Origin: an uncultured Nitrosospira sp. | Lineage (GTDB): Bacteria > Nitrospirota > Nitrospiria > Nitrospirales > Nitrospiraceae | NCBI GenBank assembly: GCA_900696515.1 | Contig: CAADGK010000056.1 | Location: forward strand, 1 to 64,000 | Reading direction: 5' to 3' | DNA length: 64,000 nt | Shown here: positions 17,326 through 26,543 of the stretch, piece by piece | Layout of the letters: every line of letters begins with the position of its first letter | Position numbering within the stretch: position 1 is the first letter of the stretch | Notes under the pieces: model-generated | Databases searched by the model: none | Told to the model about the DNA's origin: nothing | Seen by the model: only the letters and a program-made list of their open reading frames with translations | Program-made: the position numbers and the translations under genes

Positions 17326-18225
17326 TCAGCTGAGCAACTCGCGCCGGGCCGTGCGGACCAGCGCAAGGACGGCCGGATGCTTCAGCCGCCGTTCGACGGT
17401 GATCGCGTAGAAATGCTGGATGAGTCCGTCCAGCTGTCCCACCACCTGTACCCGATATTGGCGACAGATCTCCTTTTCGATCACCGTGGCGCCCGGGAAG
17501 ATCCCATGGCCGTCCTGGCCGAAGGCTTTGAGCGTCGCACTGTCGTCGAACTCGCCGACCACGGTGGGATGCAGGCCATGGTTCACCATCCACTGGTCCA
17601 TCAAGCGACGAAGCACGGCGTTCGAAGTGGGGAGGAGGAGCGGCGCGTTGCGGAGTGACTGGGGAAAGTCCCGGCGATACTGGGCGGCCATCTTTGCCGT
17701 GGCGAACAGAGTGACGCCCGATTCACCCAGCGGATGGTTATACGCATGCTCCTTCACGCCGGGCGGAGCCGGGGTATCGGCGATCACCAAATCCGACCGA
17801 TGGGCGGCCAGATCGGTCAGAAGCTGACGCAGTTTATCCTCCTGGCAGATCAAGCGTGTCGGCTTATAGAGCTTGAGAGCGGACTTGAGCAGTTGGGTGG
17901 CGAGCGGTTTAGGCACGGCGTCGGCAATGCCCACGACGAGACGCGACGGCTGTCCGTTTCCCTGCCCCCTCACGGTATTCATCAGCTCTTGTCCCGTGGC
18001 GAAGATGTCTTCCGCGTACTTGAACACGAGCTGGCCCATCTCCGTCAGCACCAGGCGCCGGCCTGTGCGAATGAACAACTTTTCGCCCAAGGTGTTTTCC
18101 AACAGATGGATCTGCCCGCTGACGGTGGGTTGAGCGAGGCGGAGTTCTTCGCAGGCTTTGGTCACCGTCCCGTGTTTGGCGACGGACCAGAAATAGAGGA
18201 GGTGATGATAGTTCAGCCAATCCAT
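17326..18225 (-). CDS. nhaR: LysR-family regulator, NhaR type
   Basis: LysR-type regulator of 299 residues. The start DWLNYHHLLYFWSVAKHG followed by LAQPTVSGQ in the helix-turn-helix matches NhaR, which in E. coli responds to sodium and alkaline pH. The C-terminal ligand domain is complete. The ATG at 18225 is the family start; the longer frame to 18450 is rejected. It is divergent from the triple TolC genes with only 145 bases between starts, so it is the obvious candidate regulator of that locus. No Na+/H+ antiporter gene is nearby. Confidence 0.85.
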   Translation of the reverse strand: MDWLNYHHLLYFWSVAKHGTVTKACEELRLAQPTVSGQIHLLENTLGEKLFIRTGRRLVLTEMGQLVFKYAEDIFATGQELMNTVRGQGNGQPSRLVVGIADAVPKPLATQLLKSALKLYKPTRLICQEDKLRQLLTDLAAHRSDLVIADTPAPPGVKEHAYNHPLGESGVTLFATAKMAAQYRRDFPQSLRNAPLLLPTSNAVLRRLMDQWMVNHGLHPTVVGEFDDSATLKAFGQDGHGIFPGATVIEKEICRQYRVQVVGQLDGLIQHFYAITVERRLKHPAVLALVRTARRELLS

Positions 18226-18255
18226 ATCGCCCCGATCGCCTGTGAAAGAGGCGGT

Positions 18256-18261
18256 ACTATA
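18256..18261 (-). promoter_or_regulatory. Candidate -10 of nhaR in the divergent region
   Basis: On the reverse strand this reads TATAGT, about 30 bases before the nhaR ATG, with only a poor -35. It lies in GGTACTATACC, whose ends GGTA and TACC are symmetric; LysR proteins often bind such sites in the shared divergent region. No convincing forward promoter was identified for the TolC genes. Confidence 0.3.
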
Positions 18262-18370
18262 CCATCGGATTAATCGATACCACAAATCTGTTTTATCTAT
18301 TTTGAAAAAAGAAGGGGAGGTTGTTACTGTTGGCGCCGTCCGCCGAATGTATACGAGAGGAGCATCCCAC

Positions 18371-19927
18371 ATGGTCGCACTGGTGTTGGCCCTGGTAATC
18401 ATTCTGCCAATGACCGCTCTGGCGGAGCCGGTGATCGACTCGAGTTCCATGAAGGCTCAGTCGGCACGTACCGAACCTCTGAGTATCGGCGAAGTGCTCG
18501 CACGCATCGAGCTCACTCATCCGCTGCTTCGGGCGACGGGGGCCGAGCGCACGAAGGCCCGGGCGAAGCTGTTGAAGGCGCTCGCGGCGTGGGAACCCAC
18601 GTTTCAGAACATTACCGAGGCTGAACGTTACAACACGTGGAATCTCACGACGACGGCTCAGTTCCTTCCCCACATCAATAACGGCGGCTACAACGATACC
18701 AAGCTCGAGGTCGCGCATCCCTGGGGCTTTCGGTTCCAGGGTGGTGTCCGCAGCGGTATGGGAGATCGCGTGAACCAGAACTTCACGGCGATTATCCCTG
18801 ATCTGCTACTATTCTATCCGCAGCAGCAGCTGATCCTCTCCGGATCGTTTGAGCTGATACGAGGGTTCCTGATCAACGAAGAGTACGCCGAGTTTCAACA
18901 GGCGGAACTGGCAGGCCCGCAGGCGGAGATCAAGGTGGCCCAGAAGCGCCAGGATCTCTATCTCGCCGGCGCCGTGCAGTATTGGGATTGGCAGGTTGCC
19001 GTCCGGCAGGCCGAGATGGTGAAGCGCGCCTTGGCGGTGGCCGAGGAACGGGTGGCTCAGGTCGAAGGGCTGGCCAAAGGCGGGAAGGTCGCGCCGCTCG
19101 ATGTCGTCGAGGCGACTCAAGAGGTGCAGCGACGGCGGGAGGCGGCGATCGCGGCCCAGCGGAACGTCGAGTATGAGCAATACAAACTGTCCCTCTATCT
19201 CTGGGAGAATAATGAGCCGGTGACGCCGCGACCGGAATGGGCGCCGGAATTTCAGGGTGAAACGCCGCTGCCGACCGAAGACGAGGTGGCCGCCTATAAA
19301 GTGGAGGCAAAAGAAGATCGGCCGGAAGTGCGGGACCTCTACATCGAAGCCAAGAAGAACAATATCGATCTCAAGCTCGCCAAGAACAAGCTGCTCCCGA
19401 AGATGACGGCCGAATCGGGGCCGACCGAGGGGGCCACGGACTGGATTGTCGGTATCGGCTACCGGGTTGGACTGCACTTTGAGATGCCGCTGTTTCAGCG
19501 GGAAGCCCGTGGGAAGATCATGTCCGCGGAAGTGGGGCAGCAGCAATTGATGTTGAAGCAGCAATATACCGAACAGCAAGTGAGCTTTGACGTGGATAAC
19601 TGGCTCTCGGCGCAAGTGCGGGCCCGAGATCGGGTGGTGGCGGCGACAGAGGCCCTGCGATTGGCCAAGACACTGGAAGAGGGTGAACGGACCCGGTTCA
19701 ACATGGGGGCCACCACCGTGCTCTTTGTGAATCTCCGTGAGCGTAATGTTGTGGAGTCAGCCTACAAGCTCTATCGGGCGCAGGCTGACTATGCCGTGGC
19801 GCGCGGAGGCATGCTGTGGGCGAGGGGTCTCTTGTCGAAGCCCTGGCCGACGGAGTCGCTGGCGCAGTACGGCGATCCGAAGACGGCGGCTGGTCTGAAC
19901 GGCTTTAAGCAACCGGGCCGAGATTAA
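18371..19927 (+). CDS. TolC-like outer-membrane efflux protein, paralogue 1 of 3
   Basis: Outer-membrane channel of the OEP/TolC family, 518 residues with a signal peptide ending in ALA-EP. It has the alpha-helical coiled-coil repeats typical of the family (for example AQKRQDLYLAGAVQYWDWQV and AATEALRLAKTLEEGERTRF). GAGAGGAG nine bases before the ATG at 18371 decides this start over upstream ATGs. It is the first of three closely similar genes with conserved N-terminal (SIGEVLARIELTHPLLRA) and C-terminal (GFKQPGRD) ends. It probably forms a channel spanning the outer membrane and periplasm, working with the ABC and HlyD proteins downstream. Confidence 0.85.
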   Translation: MVALVLALVIILPMTALAEPVIDSSSMKAQSARTEPLSIGEVLARIELTHPLLRATGAERTKARAKLLKALAAWEPTFQNITEAERYNTWNLTTTAQFLPHINNGGYNDTKLEVAHPWGFRFQGGVRSGMGDRVNQNFTAIIPDLLLFYPQQQLILSGSFELIRGFLINEEYAEFQQAELAGPQAEIKVAQKRQDLYLAGAVQYWDWQVAVRQAEMVKRALAVAEERVAQVEGLAKGGKVAPLDVVEATQEVQRRREAAIAAQRNVEYEQYKLSLYLWENNEPVTPRPEWAPEFQGETPLPTEDEVAAYKVEAKEDRPEVRDLYIEAKKNNIDLKLAKNKLLPKMTAESGPTEGATDWIVGIGYRVGLHFEMPLFQREARGKIMSAEVGQQQLMLKQQYTEQQVSFDVDNWLSAQVRARDRVVAATEALRLAKTLEEGERTRFNMGATTVLFVNLRERNVVESAYKLYRAQADYAVARGGMLWARGLLSKPWPTESLAQYGDPKTAAGLNGFKQPGRD

Positions 19928-19950
19928 TTCGACAGAAGGAGCATTCTGTG

Positions 19951-21537
19951 ATGGCCGCTCTCTTACTCATCATACTGATCTTGCTTCCGGTAAGGGCACT
20001 GGCGGAACCGGTGCACGATTCGAGCGCGCTGAAGGCGCAGTCCGTCCGCACCGAACCCCTGACCATCAGCGAAGTGCTCGCCAGGATCGAGTTGACCCAT
20101 CCGCTGCTCAGGGCTCAGGGCGTCGAACGCATGCAGGCCCGTGCGAAGATTCTCAAGGCGCTCGGGGCCTGGGAACCGACGTTCAAGAACACGGTCAATG
20201 CCAATCGTATTCAAGTCTATAACTTCCTGTATCCACAAGAAGTGATCACCGGAGGCTTTAACGACACCAAGCTCGAGCTCGGGCACCCCTGGGGTTTCAC
20301 GGTCCGTGGCGGGATCCGTAACGGATTCGGAGATCGGGGTATTACCGACCCTATTCCTGATGGGACCGGATCGGGCGGCCTCGAAGCAGGGACGGTTGGA
20401 TTTATCCCTGACCCGCTGGGTTTCTATAACCAACAGCAAATGATCTTCGGTGGGGAGTTCCATCTGCTGCGCGGCTTCATGATGAACGAAGAGTATGCCG
20501 AGTTTCAAAAGGCCGAACTGGCCGGGCCGCAGGCAGAGATCCATGTTGCTCAAAAGCGGCAGGATCTCTATCTCGCGGGGGCCGTCCAATATTGGGATTG
20601 GCAGGTGGCGGTGAGGCAGGCCGAGATGGTCAAGCGGGTCTTAGCGGTTGCCGAAGAACGCTTGGTTCAGGTTCAGGGGATGGCCAAGGGCGGAAAGGTG
20701 GCGCCGCTCGATGTCATTGAGGTCAACCAGGAAGTTCAGGCCAGACGGGAGGCGGCGATCGCCGCGCAACGTAACGTCGAATATGAGCAGTACAAGCTGT
20801 CCCTTTTTCTCTGGGAGGGCGGCGAGCCGGTGGTCCCCAGGCCGGAGTGGGCGCCGGAGTTTCAGGGGGAGACGCCCTTGCCCACTGCGGAAGAAATCGC
20901 CGCGAATAAAGTGGCGGCGAAAGAGGATCGCCCGGAAGTGCGGGATATCTACATTGAAGCCAAGCTGAACAATATCGATCTCAAGCTCGCGAAGAACTAT
21001 CTGCTTCCGACATTTGATTTTAGCGGTGGCCGTATGGAGGCTCCGGCGGACTGGAGCGTGGGTGTCGGGTATCGGATGGGGTCGCAATTTAAGATGCCGC
21101 TGTTCCAGCGGGAAGGACGCGGGAAGGTCCTGTACGCGGAGGCGGAGCAGCAGCAATTGGTCCTCAAGCAGCTGTACACCGAGCAACAGGTCAGCATTGA
21201 CGTGGACAACTGGCTCTCCGCCCAAGTGCGGGCCAGAGATCGGGTGAAAGCGGCGACGGAAGCTCTGCGGTTGGCCAAGACGTTGGAGGAAGGCGAACGG
21301 ACCAGATTCAATATGGGCGCAAGCACGGTCCTCTTCGTGAATCTCCGGGAACGCAACGTCGTGGAACAGGCGTACAAGCTCTATCGGGCGCAAGCCGACT
21401 ACGCCGTGTCGCGTGGCGGTATGTTGTATGCGACGGGAGCCCTGTCGAAGCCATGGGCCGAAAGCGAGTTGGCCAAGTACGGCAATCCGCTGACGGCAGC
21501 CGGTGCATACGGCTTTAAACAACCGGGCCGCGATTGA
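19951..21537 (+). CDS. TolC-like outer-membrane efflux protein, paralogue 2 of 3
   Basis: A 528-residue paralogue of the preceding gene with a signal peptide (LLIILILLPVRALA). The helical hairpins are nearly identical to paralogue 1, while about residues 75-165, which should include a beta-barrel strand and exposed loop, differ and carry a glycine-rich insert (GTGSGGLEAGTVGF). The start at 19951 follows AGAAGGAGCATTCTG, the same leader found before paralogue 3. The gap to the previous gene is 23 bases, the same as to the next gene, which suggests tandem duplication including the ribosome site. Confidence 0.85.
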   Translation: MAALLLIILILLPVRALAEPVHDSSALKAQSVRTEPLTISEVLARIELTHPLLRAQGVERMQARAKILKALGAWEPTFKNTVNANRIQVYNFLYPQEVITGGFNDTKLELGHPWGFTVRGGIRNGFGDRGITDPIPDGTGSGGLEAGTVGFIPDPLGFYNQQQMIFGGEFHLLRGFMMNEEYAEFQKAELAGPQAEIHVAQKRQDLYLAGAVQYWDWQVAVRQAEMVKRVLAVAEERLVQVQGMAKGGKVAPLDVIEVNQEVQARREAAIAAQRNVEYEQYKLSLFLWEGGEPVVPRPEWAPEFQGETPLPTAEEIAANKVAAKEDRPEVRDIYIEAKLNNIDLKLAKNYLLPTFDFSGGRMEAPADWSVGVGYRMGSQFKMPLFQREGRGKVLYAEAEQQQLVLKQLYTEQQVSIDVDNWLSAQVRARDRVKAATEALRLAKTLEEGERTRFNMGASTVLFVNLRERNVVEQAYKLYRAQADYAVSRGGMLYATGALSKPWAESELAKYGNPLTAAGAYGFKQPGRD

Positions 21538-21560
21538 TCCGGCACAAGGAGCATTCTGCG

Positions 21561-23153
21561 ATGGCCGTTCTATTACTCGCGATTCTGATCCTGCTTCCCG
21601 TGACGAGCGTGGCGCAACCGGTACACGATTCGAGCCTGTTGAAAGCCCAATCTGTCCGTACCGCGCCCCTGACGATTGAAGAAGTGCTGGCCAGGATTGA
21701 GTTGACGCACCCCTTGCTTCGGGCAACCGGACTGGAGCGGACGCACGCCCGGGCGAAAATGCTGAAGTCGTTGGGCGCGTGGGAGCCGAAGCTGCGGAAT
21801 GAGGTCGAAGTCGACCGATTTCAAACCTATAACCTGACGAACGTGTCCGGCGTGCCGAACACCCTGACGGGTGGCTATAGCGATACGATGCTCAAGATCG
21901 GCCACCCCTATGGGCTTGAGGCGTTCACCGGAATCCGTCACGGCTTCGGGGATTGTAGTGCAATTAGCGGCGAGGGTCCCTCCTTCACCGGGTGCGCGGC
22001 TACCGGCCCTGTGGCGTTCCCGACGGATAACGAACTGTTCTACACCCAGCAAAATATCATCTTCGGCGGGTCAATGAATCTCTTGCGAGGGTTCATGATC
22101 AACGACGAGTATGCGACCTATCAACAGGCGGAACTCGCGGGACCCCAGGCCGAGGTCAAGGTGGCCCAGAAACGACAGGATCTCTATCTTGCCGGGGCCG
22201 TGCAATACTGGGATTGGCAGGTCGCGGTCAAGCAAGCCGATGTGGTGAAGCGGACGTTGGCGGTTGCGGAAGACCGGTATCGCATGGTCGAGGGAAAGTC
22301 CAAAGCCGGGGCCGTTGCTCCGATCGACGTGGTCGAAGCCAGGGAAGAGGTTCAGCGGCGTCGAGAGGCTGCCATTGCCGCCCAGCGAAAAGTTGAATAT
22401 GAGCAATACAAGCTCGCGCTCTTCCTCTGGGAGAACGGTGATCCTGTGACGCCGCGTCCCGAATGGGCCCCGGAGTTTCAGGGAGAAACCCCCTTGCCGA
22501 GCGAAGAGGATGTCGCGGCGTTCAAGGTGGAAGCCACGGAGGATCGTCCGGAAGTACGCGACCTCTACATTGAAGCCAAGATGAACAACATCGAATTGAA
22601 GCTGGCGAAGAATAACCTGCTGCCCAAACTCAGTGTTGAGGGGGGACCGGCGGTGGGCGGTATCTATTGGATCGGAGGGTTCGGGTACCATTTCGGCGCG
22701 CACTTCAGCATGCCGCTGTTCAATCGGGCTGCTCGAGGAAAAGTTTTGTACGCAGAAGCGCAGCAACAACGGTTGGCCTATAAGCAGATCTACACCGAGA
22801 AACAGGTGGCGATCGACGTGGACAACTGGCTCTCCGCCATCGTGCGGGCCAGAGACCGCGTGAAGGCCGCCACCGAAGCGTTGCGTCTGGCCAAGACTTT
22901 GGAAGAAGGTGAACGAGCGCGCTTTCACATGGGCGCTACGAGCGTGCTCTTCGTGAACTTAAGAGAGCGCGCGGTCGTCGAAGCGGCCTACGAACTCTAT
23001 CGCGCCCAAGCCGACTATGCCGTATCCCGCGGAGGGATGCTCTGGGCGAGAGGCGCTTTATCGAAACCGCTGGCCGACAATGTCTTGGCGAAATATGGTG
23101 ATCCCATCCTGTCCGCTGGTTCATCAGGACGAAAAGTTCCGGGACGCGATTAA
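21561..23153 (+). CDS. TolC-like outer-membrane efflux protein, paralogue 3 of 3
   Basis: The third paralogue, 530 residues, with signal peptide LLLAILILLPVTSVA. Helical regions match the other two. The variable region contains two cysteines, C132 and C145, absent from the equivalent stretches of paralogues 1 and 2; they flank a short loop (SAISGEGPSFTG) and could form a disulfide in an exposed loop. It ends KVPGRD, like the GFKQPGRD tails of the others. ATG 21561 follows AAGGAGCATTCTG. There are then 139 bases to the ABC gene. Confidence 0.85.
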   Translation: MAVLLLAILILLPVTSVAQPVHDSSLLKAQSVRTAPLTIEEVLARIELTHPLLRATGLERTHARAKMLKSLGAWEPKLRNEVEVDRFQTYNLTNVSGVPNTLTGGYSDTMLKIGHPYGLEAFTGIRHGFGDCSAISGEGPSFTGCAATGPVAFPTDNELFYTQQNIIFGGSMNLLRGFMINDEYATYQQAELAGPQAEVKVAQKRQDLYLAGAVQYWDWQVAVKQADVVKRTLAVAEDRYRMVEGKSKAGAVAPIDVVEAREEVQRRREAAIAAQRKVEYEQYKLALFLWENGDPVTPRPEWAPEFQGETPLPSEEDVAAFKVEATEDRPEVRDLYIEAKMNNIELKLAKNNLLPKLSVEGGPAVGGIYWIGGFGYHFGAHFSMPLFNRAARGKVLYAEAQQQRLAYKQIYTEKQVAIDVDNWLSAIVRARDRVKAATEALRLAKTLEEGERARFHMGATSVLFVNLRERAVVEAAYELYRAQADYAVSRGGMLWARGALSKPLADNVLAKYGDPILSAGSSGRKVPGRD

Positions 23154-23231
23154 TGACGGGTGATGAACCAAGTTAAACTACATAGTACATTCGGTGGGCT
23201 TGGATATTGAGACACGAATAGCTTAAGTTCC

Positions 23232-23250
23232 GTTGTATACAACGTTGTAA
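23232..23250. promoter_or_regulatory. Palindromic site upstream of ABC gene
   Basis: A perfect 12-bp palindrome GTTGTATACAAC (23232-23243) overlaps a second one, ACAACGTTGT, about 45 bases before the ABC start. It could be an operator between the TolC genes and the ABC-HlyD genes. No regulator can be assigned. Confidence 0.4.
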
Positions 23251-23292
23251 GGGGCCGATGATTCACATTCTGACATATTACTGGGGGTGCTC

Positions 23293-24969
23293 ATGAACGA
23301 ACCTCAGGGCGTAGGTAACCAGGGATTGTTCCAAGCATTGATGAGGCAGTTGTCAGTGGCCATGCGGGCGGAGAAGAAGATCATGAGCTTGCTCATTTCT
23401 TACGCCCTGGCCGTCGGGTTTTTCTCGCTTATTATTCCATTGACCGTGCAGGAATTGGTCAGCACCTTTTCCTATGCGATTCAACCGGTCATGATCTGGA
23501 CCTTGACGGGCATCATGTTTTCGGTCCTGCTGTTCGTCGGTCTGTTCAAGACCTTCCATTTCTACGCGGTGGACGTCGTCCAGCGCCGGGTGTTTGCGCG
23601 GGTCGCGGTGGCGATGGTCGAGGCGCTCCCTCGGAATCGATTCAAAGGGGCTCGGCCGGAAATCGCGAACTACTTTATCGAAACGGTCTTCATGCAGCGG
23701 GCGCTTTCAACGTTGCTCGTTGATCTGCTGAACGTGGTGGTGGGTGGATCAGTCGGGATGATCATGCTGGTCGTCTATCACCCCTACTTTCTCATGTACA
23801 ACCTTGTGCTCATGGCGGGGTTCGCGATCACGTTCTTTGTGCTCTCCCGCGGAGCGTTGAAAGCGACCTTGGCGATGTCTCACGCCAAGTACGACGTGTT
23901 CAATTTCATCCAAGAGGTTTCCCGGAATGCCTTGCAATTGAAGGCAACCGACAGCAAGCCGTTTCTGATCCAGAAAACCGATGCGCTGGTCAGCCGCTAT
24001 GTTGAAACGCGGAAGGCACGGTTCGCCGTGCTGGTGAGACAGTACATCGGGTCCGTGGCAGGGCAAGCCGTCGCACAGGCCGGCGCCCTTTCCATCTCCG
24101 GATCCCTGTTGGCGTCAGGACAGTTGACCCTAGGGCAGTTGGTGGCGGTCCAGGCCGTGGTCAGCGCCCTGGTCATCAATTTTGATTCTCTGATCAAGAA
24201 TATGGGATTTGTGTACTACTTCTTTGCCTCTTTGACCCATCTTGATGAGGTGTTTAGTCAAGAGCAGGATTTGGTCTCCACGGACTCTACCGTGGCTCTG
24301 CCGAAGCACCTGGGGCAAGGTGTTCGGGTTACCTGCAAAGGGGTGAGTTTGGTTCACAGTGGTGTCGCGGTGTTCGATGGCTTCAACCTGGATGTGGCAC
24401 CGGGAGAGAAGCTTGGAATTTACGCCAAAACAACGGCTGCGAAGACGGCATTGGCACGAGTGCTCGGTGGGCTTGAAGTGCCGACCGGTGGCGTTGTGCA
24501 GTACAACGGAGTCGATCTTCGTTATATCGATCCCAGTGCGATCAATCAGTGCCGCAGCGTGATGATTGACTCGCAGTTGTCCCTGGTCAAGGGCACGATC
24601 GAAGAGAATATTGTGATGGGACGCTCCTATGTCACCTATGACGACTTGAATTGGGCGCTCCGCTTCACCGAGCTGGAAGAGGATATCGAGGGTCTTCCTC
24701 GGGGGGTCAAGTCCGATATCTCCTCGCTCGGGGAGTCCGTTTCGCCGACGCACGTGGTGCAGATTCTCTTGGCCCGTGCGATTCTCGGCCGTCCGCAGGT
24801 GCTTGTGTTTGACGGGTTGATTCATTCCCTAGAGCCGTCGTTGCGTGAACGGGTCCTGCGACGACTGTGCTCCAAGGACGAGGCTTGGTCGGTGATCTTT
24901 GTGTCCACCGATCCGAACCTGACGGATCATGCCGATCGTCGTATTATGTTGCATCATACTCATGCGTAA
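23293..24969 (+). CDS. Type I secretion-like ABC half-transporter with degenerate ATPase domain
   Basis: A 558-residue protein: N-terminal membrane domain of about six helices (residues 30-320) fused to a C-terminal nucleotide-binding domain, laid out like type I secretion ABC proteins without a peptidase domain. The ATPase motifs are eroded. Walker A is AKTTAAKT (378-385), keeping K384 and T385 but none of the three glycines. The signature LSGGQ is VSPTH (483-487). After the Walker B aspartate D507 the catalytic glutamate is G508. The H-loop histidine is lost (VSTDP) and the Q-loop glutamine is changed. The frame is intact, so it is probably an inactive or regulatory ABC subunit. It is preceded by three TolC genes and followed by HlyD. 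Confidence 0.82.
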   Translation: MNEPQGVGNQGLFQALMRQLSVAMRAEKKIMSLLISYALAVGFFSLIIPLTVQELVSTFSYAIQPVMIWTLTGIMFSVLLFVGLFKTFHFYAVDVVQRRVFARVAVAMVEALPRNRFKGARPEIANYFIETVFMQRALSTLLVDLLNVVVGGSVGMIMLVVYHPYFLMYNLVLMAGFAITFFVLSRGALKATLAMSHAKYDVFNFIQEVSRNALQLKATDSKPFLIQKTDALVSRYVETRKARFAVLVRQYIGSVAGQAVAQAGALSISGSLLASGQLTLGQLVAVQAVVSALVINFDSLIKNMGFVYYFFASLTHLDEVFSQEQDLVSTDSTVALPKHLGQGVRVTCKGVSLVHSGVAVFDGFNLDVAPGEKLGIYAKTTAAKTALARVLGGLEVPTGGVVQYNGVDLRYIDPSAINQCRSVMIDSQLSLVKGTIEENIVMGRSYVTYDDLNWALRFTELEEDIEGLPRGVKSDISSLGESVSPTHVVQILLARAILGRPQVLVFDGLIHSLEPSLRERVLRRLCSKDEAWSVIFVSTDPNLTDHADRRIMLHHTHA

Positions 24970-25017
24970 GTCGTTGAAACGGCCCATTCATAGCAGTACT
25001 TTTATTATGGAGGCTCC

Positions 25018-26463
25018 ATGGCTAGCCTAGGTCGCGGTCATGATAGTGGTGGTGAGCGTGCGCTGGTTCAACGAGGGGTCGGCTTGGAAGCGATCACGAT
25101 TGAACAAGGTCCGGCATTGGCAAAGTTGCCCTGCTGGCAGGCAGTACAAATACCAAGAGGGATGTTCACGGCTTCTCGCGCCATTCTGACGCTTCTCCTC
25201 TTGTTTCTGATTGTGCTGGAGTTTGTTCCTTGGACGCAGACGATCAGCGCCACAGGCAAAGTCTCTGCGTATACTCCGTATGACCGGCCGCAGCAGATCG
25301 AATCCCGGATCACAGGCCGGGTGAAGGCCTGGCACATCTACGAAGGTGTGAAGGTCAAGAAGGGTGAACTCGTCGGCGAGCTGGAGGATTACGATCCGAC
25401 CTTTATGGCGCCGGAAATCCTTCCTCTCTTCGAACAGAGAAAAGTCGCGCTGGAACAGACGCGCCAGGCCGCGTTAGCCAGGGCGGACCAGTTGAACAGG
25501 CGGATCGGCGAGATGAGGAAGCTTGTCCAGGCCGCGGTGCCTTCCGCCGAAGCGAGAGTGGTTGAAGCCGACAACAAGGTGCGGGAAGCACAGCAGAAGG
25601 TCGAACAGTACAAAATTGACGTCCATACAGCCCAACTCAATGTCGATCGTCATCGGCAACTGGTTCGTGAAGGGTTGGTTTCACAGCGTGAACTTGAGTT
25701 GACCATCCAAACCGAAATCGGGACCAAGGCCGGCTTACAGGCGGCACAGGCCAGTCTTCTGGCTGCGGAGCAGGCCCGGTCATCGTTGAGCTTCGGTCGT
25801 GACCAAGTCTCGGCGGATGTGAACCAGAAGCTGATGGATGCCATTGCCTCGCGTGATTCCGCCGTTGCCGAAGCCGCGAAGGCGACCGAATCGTTGGCGG
25901 ATATTTCCTACCGGCAACAGGGGGTCCAGCAACGTATTGAAGCTGCAAAACTCTTTGCTCCTATGGACGGTACGGTCGTCAAGATGGCGAAAGTCGGTAT
26001 CAATGAGACGGTGAAGCAGGGTGAGAATTTGGTGACCATTTCTCCCCTTGCCGCTGATCCGGCCATTGAGATGACTGCTGAGGGGTTGGACTCCCCGCTC
26101 CTGAAGCCAGGGCGCAAGGTTCGGATCCTGTTCTTCGGTGTGCCGGCTATTCCCTTGCCGGCATGGCCGAGTTTGATGGCCGGAACCCGAGGGGGTGTCA
26201 TCAAGGTGGTTGACCAGATTGACGATGGGAAAGGCAACTACCGGTTCTGGGTCGTTCCTGATCCAGAGGATCCTCAGCCGTGGCCTGAGCAAGCTCAGGT
26301 GCGACAGGGAACGAAGGTGATGGGTTGGGTCATCATGAATCGGGTTCCGCTCTGGTATGAGCTGTGGCGGCGGTTCAACTTCTTCCCGCCGGACTATATG
26401 CAGCGTGAACCGAGTCTGTTTGAGATGTTTGCGCCCAAGGTGGCGACACCAGGCGCGAAGTAA
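25018..26463 (+). CDS. HlyD-family periplasmic adaptor protein
   Basis: A 481-residue membrane-fusion protein. One transmembrane helix near residues 52-70 (AILTLLLLFLIVLEFVPW) is followed by a beta-barrel/lipoyl half (GRVKAWHIYEGVKVKKGELVG), a long coiled-coil hairpin (about residues 135-305) and the second lipoyl half (LFAPMDGTVVKMAKVG). It would bridge the ABC protein in the inner membrane and a TolC-like channel. GGAGG lies six bases before the ATG. It is the last gene of the cluster and is followed by a strong terminator. The conserved tail PLWYELWRRFNFFPPDY is not a motif I can explain. Confidence 0.87.
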   Translation: MASLGRGHDSGGERALVQRGVGLEAITIEQGPALAKLPCWQAVQIPRGMFTASRAILTLLLLFLIVLEFVPWTQTISATGKVSAYTPYDRPQQIESRITGRVKAWHIYEGVKVKKGELVGELEDYDPTFMAPEILPLFEQRKVALEQTRQAALARADQLNRRIGEMRKLVQAAVPSAEARVVEADNKVREAQQKVEQYKIDVHTAQLNVDRHRQLVREGLVSQRELELTIQTEIGTKAGLQAAQASLLAAEQARSSLSFGRDQVSADVNQKLMDAIASRDSAVAEAAKATESLADISYRQQGVQQRIEAAKLFAPMDGTVVKMAKVGINETVKQGENLVTISPLAADPAIEMTAEGLDSPLLKPGRKVRILFFGVPAIPLPAWPSLMAGTRGGVIKVVDQIDDGKGNYRFWVVPDPEDPQPWPEQAQVRQGTKVMGWVIMNRVPLWYELWRRFNFFPPDYMQREPSLFEMFAPKVATPGAK

Positions 26464-26469
26464 GAGCGT

Positions 26470-26494
26470 GGCGCCGCAGGACTTCTGCGGCGCC
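26470..26494 (+). terminator. GC-rich hairpin after HlyD gene
   Basis: A perfect 10-bp stem GGCGCCGCAG (26470-26479) with CTGCGGCGCC (26485-26494) and a five-base loop lies just downstream of the HlyD stop. Without a U-run it probably protects the 3' end, with the true terminator next to it. Confidence 0.5.
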
Positions 26495-26505
26495 GGCATC
26501 TCTTG

Positions 26506-26543
26506 AAAAGAGCCCGGGGAGGAATCCCCGGGCTCTTTTATTT
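26506..26543 (+). terminator. Rho-independent terminator of the TolC/ABC/HlyD locus
   Basis: A perfect 15-bp stem, arms 26506-26520 and 26525-26539, with loop GGAA and a TTTTATTT tail. This is the strongest terminator in the window and marks the end of the cluster. Apart from it and the purE promoter, the rest of the 26464-26770 gap shows no gene. Confidence 0.93.

Follow-up and report, generated by a model that had tools for sequence, protein, structure and literature searches.

A conserved TolC-HlyD-ABC cassette of Nitrospira whose ABC subunit lacks the motifs for ATP hydrolysis

Introduction

Tripartite exporters are usually described with an energised inner-membrane transporter. The 64,000-nucleotide stretch of Nitrospiraceae DNA analysed here (the window) holds a cassette that raises the question of what such an assembly might do without one: three tandem TolC-like channel genes are followed by genes for an ABC half-transporter with an eroded nucleotide-binding domain (NBD) and for a HlyD-type adaptor. 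An earlier note on this DNA had started from one normal type I secretion system (T1SS) with spare channels, a premise that finds no support where the ABC protein is predicted to be ATPase-dead and is preserved by selection. As read from the sequence, the eroded ABC protein, which that note undervalued, is the main point of the locus, a conserved and ATPase-dead subunit rather than a case of decay in a single genome.

Organization of the cassette

The genes and the elements around them are collected in Table 1. Reading frames and profiles bear out the three tandem TolC-like genes (518, 528 and 530 residues; Pfam OEP E-values 9e-27 to 8e-33), as well as their equal spacing, both intergenic gaps being 23 bp, and the common leader before TolC_B and TolC_C, AAGGAGCATTCTG. 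TolC_A has a related leader, GAGGAGCATCCCAC, and a GGAGCAT leader is thus common to all three TolC genes and is kept across species in each of them. The ABC half-transporter and HlyD adaptor followed by a strong terminator likewise stand, on reading frames, profiles and fold energy; the promoter/terminator scan overlooked it, as the stem extends into the T tract.

Table 1. Features of the cassette and its flanks, in window positions.
Feature	Position	Strand	Evidence
NhaR-like LysR regulator	17326..18225	-	NCBIfam NhaR model NF008284, 233 bits (cut-off 219)
Putative promoter/operator region, blocks TTTTATCTATTTTGAAAAA and GGCGCCGTCCGC	18226..18370	+	15-species alignment
TolC_A, outer-membrane channel protein, 518 aa	18371..19927	+	Pfam OEP 9.2e-27; orthologous clade of 27
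TolC_B, outer-membrane channel protein, 528 aa	19951..21537	+	Pfam OEP 3.3e-28; AF2 and Foldseek
TolC_C, outer-membrane channel protein, 530 aa	21561..23153	+	Pfam OEP 7.7e-33; deepest of the three clades
TolC_C-ABC intergenic region, conserved blocks ATAGTNCATTCGGTGGG, TTCACATTCTGAC and ACTGGGGGTG	23154..23292	+	Alignment of 17 loci
Pseudo-ABC half-transporter, six-TM exporter domain and eroded NBD, 558 aa	23293..24969	+	ABC_tran 32.9 bits (cut-off 25)
HlyD-type periplasmic adaptor, 481 aa	25018..26463	+	HlyD_3 29.2 bits; RLS motif R211-L215-S222
Strong intrinsic terminator of two hairpins, with a T run at the end of the second	about 26461-26540	+	MFE -60.3 kcal/mol, z -6.5

The NhaR-like gene, for which an internal ATG near 18225 is a likelier start than that of the longest ORF, reaching 18450, is divergent to the cassette and adjoins TolC_A in every listed complete relative locus. 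The region between it and TolC_A probably has a regulatory role, with its blocks as a candidate NhaR-type operator. Several conserved blocks also lie in the 139-bp spacer that separates TolC_C from the ABC gene, and the ABC-HlyD pair may therefore have its own promoter; by its conservation, this spacer is possibly a second promoter, an operator or a leader. A palindrome, TTGTATACAA, occurs within these blocks in part of the species only. A single transcript of all five genes is no more than plausible. As stated in the earlier note, no cargo gene lies next to the cassette, and no candidate for a dedicated substrate was found either within the cassette or in the conserved region around it.

Conservation in Nitrospirota

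The scan of named genomes for the ABC family, which used two short peptide patterns, gave 55 Nitrospirota loci (57 were returned, two being distant canonical ABCs of other phyla). The order NhaR / TolC_A-TolC_B-TolC_C-ABC-HlyD recurs in Nitrospira, where 24 of the 26 complete loci, that is, those spanning NhaR to ABC, have exactly TolC A, B and C; of the two exceptions, L034 carries an additional recombinant repeat, and in L031 there is a deletion and the TolC genes are broken. The same gene order, which the earlier note proposed to look for in other Nitrospirota, is thus that of a conserved cassette, and the paralogues form a co-retained set within it rather than being scattered in relatives. 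A local accident or assembly artefact was rejected, as the same order is found in many independent assemblies; most sequences compared come from metagenome assemblies. In L034 (2367-9867) the cassette is enlarged by the recombinant repeat (A-B-C'/A'-B-C), which shows directly that the paralogues have recombined.

Across the phylum, the two families co-occur, ABC in 111 of 396 genomes and HlyD in 109 of 392, each in 18 of 169 genera, all belonging to one order. At least three matches to TolC_B were found in 52 of the 77 genomes of the genus sample, a count that includes the single TolC genes of paralogous systems. Other genera carry HlyD-TolC-ABC operons, some with two ABC genes, and many of these operons share a chromosomal site adjoining purE/purK and an agmatinase gene. 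The source genome itself contains two further copies of the system (L019:5401-11805 and L020:6937-11751; ABC 57% identical), each with one TolC and with HlyD convergent to ABC, one of which also adjoins an NhaR-like gene.

The genus Nitrospira includes complete ammonia oxidisers, and amoA is present in the source genome (G000:C26:40399-41106), which is therefore probably that of such an organism. Within the genus sample, genomes with a single TolC match all lack amoA, and the triple cassette occurs both with and without it; on the latter ground a specific link to ammonia oxidation was rejected.

Loss of ATPase motifs in the ABC protein

The earlier description of the ABC protein as eroded is confirmed by its motifs: AKTTAAKT stands at Walker A, VSPTH at the place of LSGGQ and DG for DE, and there is no H-switch. 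None of the 82 aligned Nitrospirales homologues has GxxGxGK[ST], LSGGQ, the catalytic Glu (Gly in all) or the H-switch His, and most keep the Walker B Asp. The erosion is graded, copies of the ABC2 type keeping GK[ST] and SQ at the signature place and the window type neither, and wherever two ABC genes occur in tandem both are eroded. It is thus very probable that the ABC subunit does not hydrolyse ATP; the motif loss also predicts, short of proof, that nucleotides are not bound.

Pairwise comparisons between species by a simple counting method gave NBD dN/dS values of 0.009-0.08 in 11 of 12 pairs, usually below that of the transmembrane domain (TMD); the twelfth pair (L058/L059) has too few changes to judge. 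Pseudogene formation or decay was rejected on the basis of these values (about 0.01-0.08) and of ORFs that are intact across an order. From this strong purifying selection we infer that the NBD is kept for a role that does not involve hydrolysis. In the AF2 model six TM helices precede an NBD fold, the layout of type IV-fold ABC exporters (NBD pLDDT about 85, TMD low), and the model's best PDB match is HlyB of the HlyB/D complex (8dck; Foldseek E 4e-18). A search of Pfam and NCBIfam gave no family-specific model, and scores are far below equivalog cut-offs; assignment to the NHLM peptide export ABCs (TIGR03796) was rejected at 118 bits against a cut-off of 853, with no peptidase domain.

Outside Nitrospirota the search covered plasmids, where three different queries returned the HlyD family on the same 20 of 72,556 records, belonging to Sphingomonadales and Bacteroidota. 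The order ABC-HlyD-TolC was found in nine annotated or directly read plasmid loci examined in detail, and all 13 neighbouring ABCs checked lack LSGGQ, an intact Walker B D-E pair and a normal H-switch, to a varying degree: Sphingomonad proteins have lost Walker A and Walker B, including the Walker B Asp, and those of Riemerella and Persicobacter retain a good part of Walker A. A tree drawn from TMD columns only, and therefore independent of the ATPase motifs, split 34 family sequences from six canonical ABC exporters (100/100), with few references and long branches. The TMD residues Q53, N126, G155, Y162-H163-F166, S196, W205, Y236 and Q250 are conserved in all three groups and not in the six canonical references. 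There appears, from these alignments, to be a multi-phylum family of T1SS-like systems unable to hydrolyse ATP. No described dead-ABC/TolC family was found in the literature search, which is weak evidence of absence. A family of at least three phyla that has the TolC-HlyD-ABC architecture and no ATPase makes it possible to test directly whether, in nature, the ABC exporter fold can function and be selected without hydrolysis, and the labels "ABC transporter ATP-binding protein" and type I secretion are probably misleading for these genes.

It could be argued that the motifs, though unusual, still work and that this is ordinary ATP-driven type I secretion, given that Pfam ABC_tran is above its cut-off and that the Walker B Asp is retained in most Nitrospirales sequences. 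However, the replacement of the catalytic Glu by Gly in 82 of 82 sequences, the missing H-switch and LSGGQ, and the further loss of the Walker B Asp in Sphingomonads make this highly improbable, and a full set of working motifs was found in none of the 82 Nitrospirales and 13 other-phylum homologues.

Alternatively, an ATPase from elsewhere might power the system, either as a canonical half-transporter partner or through live and dead ABC dimers around one HlyD ring. The genome does encode further full ABC exporters whose motifs are canonical (L004-L008), and heterodimeric exporters in which one of the sites is degenerate are a familiar class, for example TM287/288 (PMC5216877). TM287/288, TmrAB and PatAB resemble the cassette protein in joining an exporter fold to a non-canonical nucleotide site, but in TM287/288-like exporters one composite site is functional, whereas the ABC subunits of the cassette each lack the motifs for both; a pseudo-ABC without Walker A and signature would leave neither composite site of a heterodimer complete. 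As no canonical ABC is conserved beside the pseudo-ABC in any locus, and tandem partners are eroded alike, we consider an external ATPase unlikely. SecA_DEAD was rejected as a substitute motor, the single such gene in the genome being on another contig.

Proposed working and comparison with known systems

The closest known system is T1SS (HlyB-HlyD-TolC; TIGR01846/TIGR01842, TIGR01843, TIGR01844), with which the cassette shares all three component types: a HlyB-like ABC, a HlyD-type adaptor with a docking hairpin and RLS motif, and a channel of TolC fold, OEP being above cut-off in all three TolCs. It differs in its ABC without ATPase motifs, its three TolC genes and the lack of a neighbouring cargo gene, and its component scores are all far below the curated T1SS cut-offs; for the adaptor, HlyD_3 is above cut-off, but TIGR01843 gives 62.9 against 208.65. 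The RLS motif serves TolC docking (PMC4446572), and none of its positions R211, L215 and S222 varies among the 24 Nitrospirales HlyD homologues compared. SecA_DEAD/HlyD modules (Kamneva et al. 2015, PMC4452313) likewise have HlyD, and sometimes OEP, without an active ABC; however, those loci are without any ABC homologue, whereas the cassette has an eroded one and no SecA_DEAD gene beside HlyD or nearby.

Our explanation as a whole, which we rate as evenly balanced between right and wrong, is a trans-envelope TolC-HlyD-ABC system that is built like T1SS, is incompetent for ATP hydrolysis and works by the following mechanism. The ABC homodimer, or an ABC1/ABC2 heterodimer in other genera, would be a non-hydrolysing inner-membrane conduit or a scaffold holding the HlyD ring, with the NBD remnants as a dimerisation or gating domain; a conduit role for the ABC protein has a little short of an even chance. 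Small cargo, driven by its own gradient or the proton-motive force, would pass HlyD and enter a TolC trimer, and the NhaR-like regulator would adjust expression of the cassette. In Nitrospira the outer part would draw on three paralogous subunits, which either form homotrimers that differ on their outer faces and serve as alternatives, or combine in one mixed trimer.

A precedent for ATP-free transport by ABC membrane domains is provided by MsbA-MD and LmrA-MD, MsbA without its NBD carrying out proton-coupled drug transport (PMC4979069). These are laboratory truncations, whereas the pseudo-ABC is a natural family that has retained its NBD under selection. Counting against the proposal, part of Walker A is kept in Persicobacter, Riemerella and some Nitrospira ABC2 copies. 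No membrane-embedded acid both unique to and conserved throughout the family was found when the three groups were compared with the six canonical references, and proton coupling is therefore without direct support. The broader claim of a naturally ATP-independent tripartite TolC class in Nitrospirota, Bacteroidota and Alphaproteobacteria, with the ABC as non-hydrolysing conduit and with a heterotrimeric TolC in Nitrospira, is doubtful.

The complex might instead serve sensing or regulation and not transport, in the manner of SUR-type or BceAB-type ABC proteins. In other Nitrospiraceae a gene for a 4HB_MCP sensory-type membrane protein comes after the ABC gene, and genes for a PAS-type histidine kinase and for a sigma-54-type response regulator stand directly after related eroded ABC genes that lack HlyD and TolC (L120:7952-12492 and L127:2935-7478). 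The window cassette, however, has neither partner, its HlyD and three TolCs imply passage of the envelope, and the intact RLS docking motif also counts against sensing, which we judge improbable. The source genome has no closer counterpart of the 4HB sensory protein than a remote match (22%) located on a different contig. At L119:10335-11123 and in most other-genus HlyD-TolC-ABC loci, the protein encoded after ABC is a small two-TM 4HB_MCP protein with no signalling domain.

Evolution of the TolC paralogues

A tree of the paralogues, as proposed in the earlier note, was built from 126 TolC sequences (quick method), and in it A, B and C form separate orthologous clades with SH-aLRT of 98 each; the triplication is therefore ancient in the lineage. 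At the basal locus L122, C is present and the A/B pair group together. Third-position identity of A and B within genomes is as high as between orthologues, which suggests possible gene conversion between them. All three proteins share their HlyD-docking tips and near-identical docking regions, the differences lying mainly in the barrel and extracellular loops (49-55% identity between paralogues, against 81-87% for the periplasmic parts). Only 15 clade-specific fixed sites were found, mostly separating A/B from C, and dN/dS is higher in the barrel than in the periplasmic part in most comparisons of close species pairs. Positive selection on the loops was rejected, dN/dS never exceeding 1.

An obligate A-B-C heterotrimer would agree with the three subunits of a TolC trimer, with the conservation of gene order and leaders in 24 of the 26 complete loci and with the three orthologous clades. 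It is nevertheless rather unlikely, since a single TolC suffices in the 93-type and other-genus versions, the clade-specific sites are few and the data suggest A-B gene conversion. Heterotrimeric TolC was not found in the literature searched; MdtBC and TriAB set a precedent, each combining paralogous subunits within a tripartite pump, but the mixed parts there are RND pump and adaptor, not TolC. The other reading, alternative homotrimers served by one inner complex, their surfaces diversified with respect to phage, predators or cargo selectivity, is to our mind as probable as not: divergence concentrated in the barrel and loops, the higher barrel dN/dS and the shared docking tips favour it, but no dN/dS above 1 was seen anywhere and it leaves the co-transcription of all three genes unexplained. 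Mixed trimers are possible, the pattern of docking tips and loops fitting alternative channels equally well, and the three co-retained Nitrospira orthologues offer a natural test of mixed outer-membrane channels.

The AF2 model of TolC_B (mean pLDDT 76.6) matches TolC, ST50 and OprM in Foldseek, including the TolC fold of 1ek9. Classical TolC has four barrel strands per protomer, and the TolC_B model has six (residues 77-91, 94-111, 117-127, 162-171, 354-361 and 374-381), which suggests a predicted barrel wider than that of classical TolC.
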